Shown here: piece by piece, positions 44,127 through 45,140 of the stretch
How the letters are laid out: the number at the start of each line of letters is the position of its first letter
Numbering within the stretch: the stretch's first letter is position 1
IMG/VR virus record: IMGVR_UViG_3300047322_000556
Coordinates: 1 to 64,000 of that record
Direction: 5' to 3' (one strand)
Length of the DNA: 64,000 nt
Source of the DNA: a virus
Notes under the pieces: generated by a model
What the model was told of the DNA's origin: nothing
The model's input: the letters and a program-made list of their open reading frames with translations, nothing else
The model's database searches: none
Translations under genes and position numbers: made by a program

Positions 44127-44168
44127 TTCCTGTGAAGAGGGAGAGTCGCCGGACTTAAATCGGGGAGT

Positions 44169-44185
44169 GGCTCGCCTAACGAGCC
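44169..44185 (+). other. RNA hairpin, CCTAA pentaloop
   Basis: GGCTCG (44169-44174), CCTAA, CGAGCC (44180-44185). First of six hairpins in the RNA with this geometry. Confidence 0.7.
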
Positions 44186-44186
44186 G

Positions 44187-44310
44187 CCTCAGAAGAGCGG
44201 CCCGCCGTCGTCGCGCCGACGTAAAAGTGGCCGTAGCTCCGTATGTCGATAGGCAAGGGTCTTTAGCTCGCGTTTGAGCCCTTTCCGTACACAGGGCCGC
44301 TCTTCTGAGG
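44187..44310 (+). other. Long-range 17-bp perfect RNA helix
   Basis: 44187-44203 and 44294-44310 are exact reverse complements enclosing 90 nt that hold two further hairpins (44206-44221 and 44266-44279). A perfect helix of this length outside a gene is strong evidence of RNA structure. Confidence 0.8.
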
Positions 44311-44555
44311 TTGCGCGTGGTGTGCAAAGCCGCGCGCGAGCTTCGAATGACTGGCGTAACCAGTTGGGCCGCCGACCGGCGGTGAGGGGCGCAAGTCGCT
44401 TCACCGTCAGCCCGGCAACGAATTCTTCCTACGGGTACTCGCGCGAGCGAGTTTGGAATGCTGGCAGATATCCCGTTGAATGATCCAGCCCCCGGCGATG
44501 CGGGTGTAATCATCAGGTGGCCGTCACCATGAGCATCGTTAATCCTCGGCCGCGT

Positions 44556-44572
44556 GGCTCCCGTAAGGAGCC
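44556..44572 (+). other. RNA hairpin, CGTAA pentaloop
   Basis: GGCTCC, CGTAA (44562-44566), GGAGCC; extends to 8 bp with flanking pairs. Nearly the same hairpin recurs at 45089-45107. Confidence 0.7.
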
Positions 44573-44705
44573 GCCCGCAAAGCGCATTCGCTGAGTGCTC
44601 TTTGCGGGTCTGGATGACTACCTTTCAAGACGGACCCTGTAAATGTCCACGAAGGCGCGATCAGCTCTGCGTTACATGCGACGACTGACTGCCGTAAGCA
44701 GTCAT

Positions 44706-44802
44706 CTCACGCGAAGCATTTGGGTCGGTGCCACCAGCAGTATGCCGATCTCCCCGACCGATCAGCGCGAACACGTCATCGGTTCAAATGCTTCGACGTG
44801 AG
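44706..44802 (+). other. Long-range 17-bp RNA helix with bulged A
   Basis: 44706-44722 pairs with 44785-44802, leaving only A44796 unpaired. A 6-bp helix lies inside (44723-44728 with 44754-44759). Confidence 0.8.
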
Positions 44803-45088
44803 ATTAAGCGGTCGCAGCCGCTCGGAAACGTCGCGAGACGCTCCTGACTGCCGGGAAAGTACCGGCCCAATTTTGTGTGACCCGCGATGTTGGGAACTAC
44901 GACCGTAGCCTCGGCGGCCCTTTCGGGGGATAAACGAGGACGAGGATTAGCAGGCGAGTGCCTCGGCAGCAAAACCCTTGCAGCACAGCACGACTATCCT
45001 AACCGCCGTTTCGCTCTAGCTTCGAGCGCGGTCGTCGGGGCTGATCGACGCGAGAGACGAGAACGGCGTCGCGCGTTCGTTTGCCGAG

Positions 45089-45133
45089 TGGCTCCCGTAA
45101 GGGGCCATGCCCGACTTGCCGCCGTAAGTGGCA
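45089..45133 (+). other. Tandem RNA hairpins with CGTAA loops
   Basis: TGGCTCC, CGTAA, GGGGCCA (45089-45107) and TGCCGC, CGTAA, GTGGCA (45117-45133), ending eight bases before the tRNA. GTCGGG (45034-45039) can pair with CCCGAC (45110-45115) between them. Confidence 0.65.
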
Positions 45134-45140
45134 GCCCTTC

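Follow-up and report, generated by a model that had tools for sequence, protein, structure and literature searches.

The non-coding region 44127-45140 of a 64,000-nucleotide (nt) stretch of viral DNA (positions 1 to 64,000 of the 89-kb IMG/VR record IMGVR_UViG_3300047322_000556; the whole stretch is hereafter termed the window) contains a previously uncatalogued compact H-type pseudoknot of 61 nt at 44603-44663, which is the most conserved module of the region. The novelty of the stretch is concentrated in this element, which the initial annotation, a reading of the region as one ornate non-coding RNA of about 1 kb, had left unnamed. On comparative evidence from its homologs, the pseudoknot structure is almost certain. 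Many of the structured RNAs that lie beside phage tRNAs lack an explanation, and a compact pseudoknot that is common to over 80 different phage sequences of several hosts and absent from the searched Rfam release offers a small, testable handle on the role of phage RNA arrays.

Structure and covariation of the pseudoknot

In the window, stem 1 (S1) pairs 44606-44610 (GGGTC) with 44633-44637 (GACCC) and stem 2 (S2) pairs 44622-44626 with 44651-44655, with conserved loops TGGATGAC, AAGACG and TAAATGTCCAC. In the general layout of the element, the five bases 5′ of TGGATG pair with the five bases 3′ of AAGACG to form S1, and a variable strand 5′ of AAGAC pairs with the strand 3′ of AAATGTCYA to form S2. 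The window element scores 62.6 bits (E 2.9e-12) against a covariance model of the pseudoknot, and none of the Rfam models matched it when 43860-45300 was scanned permissively (to E 5).

Both stems are preserved by compensatory change. Across 48 distinct sequences, S1 and S2 are paired in 91.9% of cells (67.5% upon shuffling), nine of the 12 pairs change on both sides, and the covariation score is 0.627, compared to 0.171 for shuffled sequences and no more than 0.148 after sliding of one strand. The second pair of S1 is paired in 100% of cases and occurs as five pair types in a larger set (A-U 39, G-C 27, U-A 26, C-G 1, G-U 1), compared to 47% pairing in shuffles. Because the search patterns fixed several loop letters together with the G and C of GNC in the 3′ strand of S1, invariance at these letters is partly built in; the last and broadest pattern left the covarying positions of S1 and the whole of S2 free. 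As an unbiased test, mutual information was computed for all column pairs, and the S1 and S2 pairs ranked at the top. An additional signal connects column 15 with column 57 (A.G 28, G.C 13). Furthermore, one base of loop 1 is U where its S2 pair is U-A (36 sequences) and C where that pair is C-G (6 sequences), as expected of a putative major-groove triple changing from U.A-U to C.G-C; the major groove of S2 probably accommodates loop 1.

Several other interpretations of the core were considered (numbers preceded by L denote compared loci and sequences from other records). An early candidate stem, GGAC/GTCC within the core, was discarded because it is broken in RiverRider (GGTC) and in L105 (TGAC), both of which keep S1. 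A putative UGGAU/GUCCA pairing between loops 1 and 3 shows no compensatory change. Service as a CsrA sponge via GGA is unlikely given the single constant GGA per element, and mimicry of the tRNA-Tyr anticodon by the loop sequence CTGTAAA was discarded because CTG varies in homologs.

Distribution of the pseudoknot

BLASTN searches of phage records, made without any structural assumption, recovered a short conserved block (~44607-44655) in Burkholderia phage Mica and in Schitoviridae of Stenotrophomonas and Xanthomonas. Pattern scans of IMG/VR and bacterial genomes added Caballeronia pedi, a Herbaspirillum metagenome-assembled genome (MAG), an Acidobacteriaceae MAG, in which the element accompanies an array of 14 tRNAs, and many viral contigs. 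A relaxed pattern matched at least 119 stretches; from these and the earlier scans together, at least ~85 distinct sequences remained once duplicates and chance matches were removed, comprising IMG/VR contigs, phage Mica, five Schitoviridae phages and contigs of Caballeronia, Herbaspirillum and Acidobacteriaceae. The matches rejected as chance (L069, L074, L075, L077, L078, L082, L104 and L108) mainly lack the upstream TCTGGATG; L078, the least certain of these rejections, still scores 32 bits with the covariance model. Many members sit within arrays of tRNAs or non-coding RNAs. Ten of the 11 records tested hold one copy, and the Herbaspirillum MAG holds two. Among 300 order-level and 369 class-level genomes, the element was found in the seed genome only and is therefore rare in bacterial genomes. 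Plasmid searches with the window region and the core as queries returned no homologs, and a variant core gave a single weak partial match.

Coding status and folding of the region

The surrounding region is real, non-coding and structured. The initial annotation had seen no credible protein gene here, and the open reading frames (ORFs) of 44127-45140 accordingly have no Pfam match on either strand, even at E 0.1. Its placement of the region in a phage beside a tRNA also holds: tRNA-Tyr directly follows the array, and terminase, portal, baseplate and tail-fibre genes are present in the window. Folding of 44145-45140 gave -452.7 kcal/mol, compared to a mean of -406.9 for shuffled sequences (z = -6.4; none of 20 shuffles did as well). 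In 200-nt windows, this signal falls chiefly in 44600-44900 (z down to -4.3). The minus strand reaches -4.5 there as well, since a long hairpin that is nearly perfect is equally stable when read from either strand; the remaining sub-windows are mostly unremarkable. Since the signal is present on both strands, folding of a single sequence is insufficient by itself to establish an RNA, and the case for the RNA nature of the region is one built on conservation across sequences rather than on single-sequence folding.

Two 17-bp long-range helices had been reported in this region. The first (44187-44203 with 44294-44310) is perfect as claimed and forms the core of longer inverted-repeat arms (Table 1), and the second is confirmed by sequence, with a single bulged A. 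At least ten smaller hairpins had been listed beside them; single-sequence folding recovered the long hairpins and not every small one. Compensatory changes in homologs, named at the time as the check to be made, are indeed seen in the pseudoknot and in the adjacent hairpin M2, both of which are kept by covariation.

Table 1 Features of the array and its immediate surroundings (window coordinates)
Feature	Coordinates	Strand	Basis and remarks
Divergent hairpin-unit copy, loop GCCTAAC	44162..44185	+	Direct repeat family D1, 75% identity; directly 5′ of long-range hairpin 1
Long-range hairpin 1	44179..44318 (arms 44179-44203/44294-44318)	+	Inverted repeat, 25-nt arms, 88% complementary; perfect 17-bp core
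CGUAA-pentaloop hairpin 1	44348..44366	+	7 bp
CGUAA-pentaloop hairpin 2	44554..44574	+	8 bp; D1; directly 5′ of M2
Hairpin M2, CCCGCAAAG-C-GCATTC/GAGTGC-T-CTTTGCGGG	44574..44608	+	Covariation; inverted repeat I3; directly 5′ of the pseudoknot
New H-type pseudoknot element, 61 nt	44603..44663	+	Covariance model, covariation, mutual information
CGUAA-pentaloop hairpin 3, CGAC in front	44686..44704	+	7 bp; D1; directly 5′ of long-range hairpin 2
Long-range hairpin 2	44704..44804 (44706-44722/44785-44802)	+	Sequence; one bulge; 3′ of CGUAA hairpin and pseudoknot
Hairpin GCCGG-GAAAGTA-CCGGC	44850..44866	+	Terminator-scan stem, hairpin scan
Proteo-phage-1 RNA, RF03044, full length	44903..44985	+	cmscan 57.6 bits (gathering score 42), E 8.9e-8
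CGUAA-pentaloop hairpin 4	45088..45108	+	8 bp; 3′ of Proteo-phage-1
CGUAA-pentaloop hairpin 5, CGAC in front	45116..45134	+	7 bp; just 5′ of the tRNA
tRNA-Tyr, anticodon GTA	45145-45227	+	ARAGORN; canonical, 3′ of the array

A probable mosaic array of RNA modules

Judged from the compared sequences, the region is best read as a mosaic array built of exchangeable RNA modules and not as one fixed class, because module order varies, homology is short and the pseudoknot also occurs in short loci of its own. Proteo-phage-1 precedes the pseudoknot by ~690 nt in the Caballeronia prophage L068 and follows it by ~300 nt in the window. Homology with distant members mostly stops ~60 nt past the start of the element. 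In the Schitoviridae sequences L084 and L085, other parts of the Paxi RNA are matched and the pseudoknot gives no hit, and in L065 and L109 the pseudoknot is preceded by promoter-like sequence and closely followed by a terminator-like hairpin. This arrangement points to exchangeable modules as possible building blocks of large “ornate” phage RNAs, and Proteo-phage-1 is one such module that was catalogued in isolation.

Proteo-phage-1 was the sole family above its gathering score, apart from tRNA, in an Rfam scan of the window; the permissive scan added a weak tRNA-Sec match on tRNA-Tyr and a chance snoRNA match. The match spans model positions 1-82, is present as a single copy in the 89-kb record and accounts for 83 of the ~1000 nt of the region, and so is not the whole of it. 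A CGUAA hairpin recurs 83-147 nt 3′ of Proteo-phage-1 in 54 of 60 other IMG/VR loci (L004-L063), and RF03044 is therefore probably one part of a longer RNA. Proteo-phage-1 lies physically within this array and its other loci share the downstream CGUAA hairpin. RF03044, however, represents 82 nt of a ~1-kb region and does not include M2, the long hairpins or the pseudoknot, whose core is absent from the 60 other exact-pattern Proteo-phage-1 loci, L057 excepted. The earlier suggestion of a new member or a new class is therefore incomplete, since part of the region is catalogued as Proteo-phage-1; the pseudoknot is absent from the Rfam release searched. At L012, L017 and L059, a tRNA-like segment bearing a T-arm lies inside a domain bounded by the complementary TGCATCGG and CCGATGCAG.

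Among the neighboring modules, M2 directly precedes the pseudoknot, both here and in many relatives; 96.4% of the cells of its stem are paired, and five of its pairs show compensatory change (covariation 0.320, compared to 0.123 shuffled; 18 sequences). Homologs of long-range hairpin 1 were not found. Several relatives carry a long helix of unrelated sequence downstream of the pseudoknot, and in the Schitoviridae this downstream helix persists as its sequence changes. The CGUAA hairpins of the region mostly have CGA or CGAC right before the stem, and a scan of both strands of the 64-kb window for CGUWA hairpins of at least 5 bp gave none beyond these five. Hairpins resembling GCCGG-GAAAGTA-CCGGC occur near the pseudoknot in some relatives (by eye: L091, L125 and L172). 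A hairpin of the form CGACTG-stem-CGTWA-stem-CA recurs in viral contigs (L211-L266, 43 unique sites), with a ribosome-binding site and an ORF at most 160 nt downstream in 24 of the 43 sites, compared to 28% of random positions; the genes that follow are varied by eye.

Further structured RNAs were noted at the compared loci. Five Schitoviridae sequences (L002 2919-3550, L083, L087, L003 and L086) hold an unannotated structured RNA of ~600 nt that includes the pseudoknot, and L084 and L085 hold a counterpart that does not. This RNA adjoins tRNA-Gln in tRNA clusters, precedes tRNA-Arg in Pokkenvirus members and contains a long helix with compensated sequence changes. A hammerhead-like sequence (CTGATGA, GAAA) at 2735-2793 of L080 scores 30.6 bits, below the gathering score of 48.5, and lies ~0.85 kb 5′ of the pseudoknot. 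In phage Mica (L001), the annotated “tRNA-OTHER” pseudogene at 3431-3505 is located at the 3′ end of the array, ~380 nt past the pseudoknot; it may represent a tRNA-like terminus and not a tRNA.

Possible functions of the pseudoknot

Any functional claim for the pseudoknot is weak compared with the claim for its structure. The reading we favor, with a probability of roughly 0.3, is that the pseudoknot shields the 5′ end or a segment boundary of a long untranslated RNA. The RppH and RNase E enzymes of E. coli and related bacteria require single-stranded 5′ ends, so that a paired 5′ end blocks them and 5′ secondary structure stabilizes the RNA (PMC3997798). The pseudoknot would lock a 5′ end or an RNA-segment boundary into a helix and thereby deny 5′-end-dependent decay (RppH, then RNase E) an entry point, allowing the untranslated RNA and the tRNAs that follow to persist. 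The array of the window would be the untranslated part of a phage transcript with tRNA-Tyr behind it, presumably transcribed as a single unit and then processed; here the pseudoknot is internal, right behind M2, and would serve as a segment boundary after processing, with the CGUAA hairpins as repeated structural or protein-binding units. On a broader and similarly tentative view, at well short of even odds, the triple-helix pseudoknot could define a new phage RNA class, placed at 5′ ends or segment boundaries in phages of several bacterial groups and determining, by protection or read-through, what becomes of long, untranslated, modular arrays of tRNAs and non-coding RNAs.

End protection would suit an element that starts at a transcription start or tRNA boundary and ties up its own first bases. 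In 10 of the 90 members, a predicted -35/-10 pair is spaced such that transcription would begin at the first bases of S1, compared to 0-6 of 87-89 at control offsets; a tRNA ends within ~2 nt of S1 in five of the 90, and a hairpin of 7-12 bp ends at S1 in 24. The covariation of the pseudoknot, its frequent location in arrays of tRNAs or non-coding RNAs, its usual single copy and the shuffling of modules also favor this reading. Four observations weigh against it. By these tests, S1 begins at no visible transcription start, tRNA end or hairpin end in most members (51 of the 90), and no sigma-70-like promoter was found near the region in the window. There, the 3′ GGG of M2 is shared with S1, and the two helices compete for these three bases. 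Finally, loop conservation exceeds the needs of simple end protection, which points to a specific partner.

Antitermination is an unlikely alternative. By analogy to the put RNAs of phage HK022, short structured RNAs that open phage transcripts and act as hairpins on RNA polymerase, a pseudoknot made just after initiation would bind the polymerase and allow it to cross untranslated arrays, which are natural targets of Rho, past Rho-dependent and intrinsic terminators. The start-site position in the 10 members mentioned and the placement of the pseudoknot ahead of tRNA arrays in L070, L076, L098 and L099 are consistent with such a role. However, a terminator-like hairpin follows within ~120 nt of the pseudoknot in L065 and L109, many members are internal, and put, compared here by its general description, consists of two hairpins where the present element is a pseudoknot.

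Rather less probable is a protein decoy, in which the CGUAA hairpins would titrate an RNA-binding protein as CsrB does CsrA. All five CGUWA hairpins of the window fall inside this 1 kb, and in other phages the CGUAA hairpin precedes a ribosome-binding site and an ORF more often than the 28% control (24/43 sites). The binding protein is hypothetical, however, and with many pseudoknot members devoid of a CGUAA hairpin, a decoy would cover Burkholderia-type arrays only.

We consider it improbable that the pseudoknot is a stand-alone, trans-acting small RNA that has a target or a partner protein, the remainder of the array being a passenger. Strong loop conservation across very different contexts, and the apparently self-contained units in L065 and L109 with their promoter-like and terminator-like sequences, would suit such a molecule, but no link to a target was seen and most members are embedded in longer RNA.

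The setting, namely size, phage location and a nearby tRNA, had prompted the initial annotation to compare the region with GOLLD and ROOL, and one large fixed RNA forming an RNA-only assembly of this kind would also agree with the strong whole-region fold. GOLLD is a large phage RNA found by tRNAs whose variable part can hold a tRNA, and ROOL, several hundred nt long, occurs in phages and prophages, often close to tRNA islands (PMC12286853). Yet the Rfam covariance models for GOLLD, ROOL and HEARO have no match to E 5 within 43860-45300. Unlike GOLLD, the present array has a mosaic order and a conserved part that is a pseudoknot of ~60 nt, and unlike ROOL its layout is not fixed. The order of modules is not kept, homology with distant members is mostly confined to the first ~60 nt of the element, and the conserved units, shuffled between phages, measure ~60-110 nt; the picture of one ~1-kb RNA is therefore doubtful, and a fixed assembly is, if anything, slightly less plausible than a small RNA acting in trans.

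Degenerate tRNAs do occur in phage tRNA clusters and isolated T-arm motifs are present at several loci, but a decaying cluster of functionless tRNA remnants is highly improbable as a general explanation, being contradicted for the pseudoknot and M2 by compensatory change in S1, S2 and M2 and by constant loops, which indicate selection on a non-tRNA structure, and may still hold for parts of the array.

Among known systems, the stable RNAs C and D of phage T4 are likewise untranslated and embedded in a tRNA cluster; the likeness is one of description, and we claim no homology.

Other features of the window

Just past the array, a second strong fold lies at 45800-45999 (z -4.8 on the plus strand, -2.2 on the minus strand). 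Farther downstream, 54584-60814 encodes a helicase-like protein of 1685 amino acids (phrog_62, Helicase_C) and, after it, a C-5 cytosine DNA methylase.
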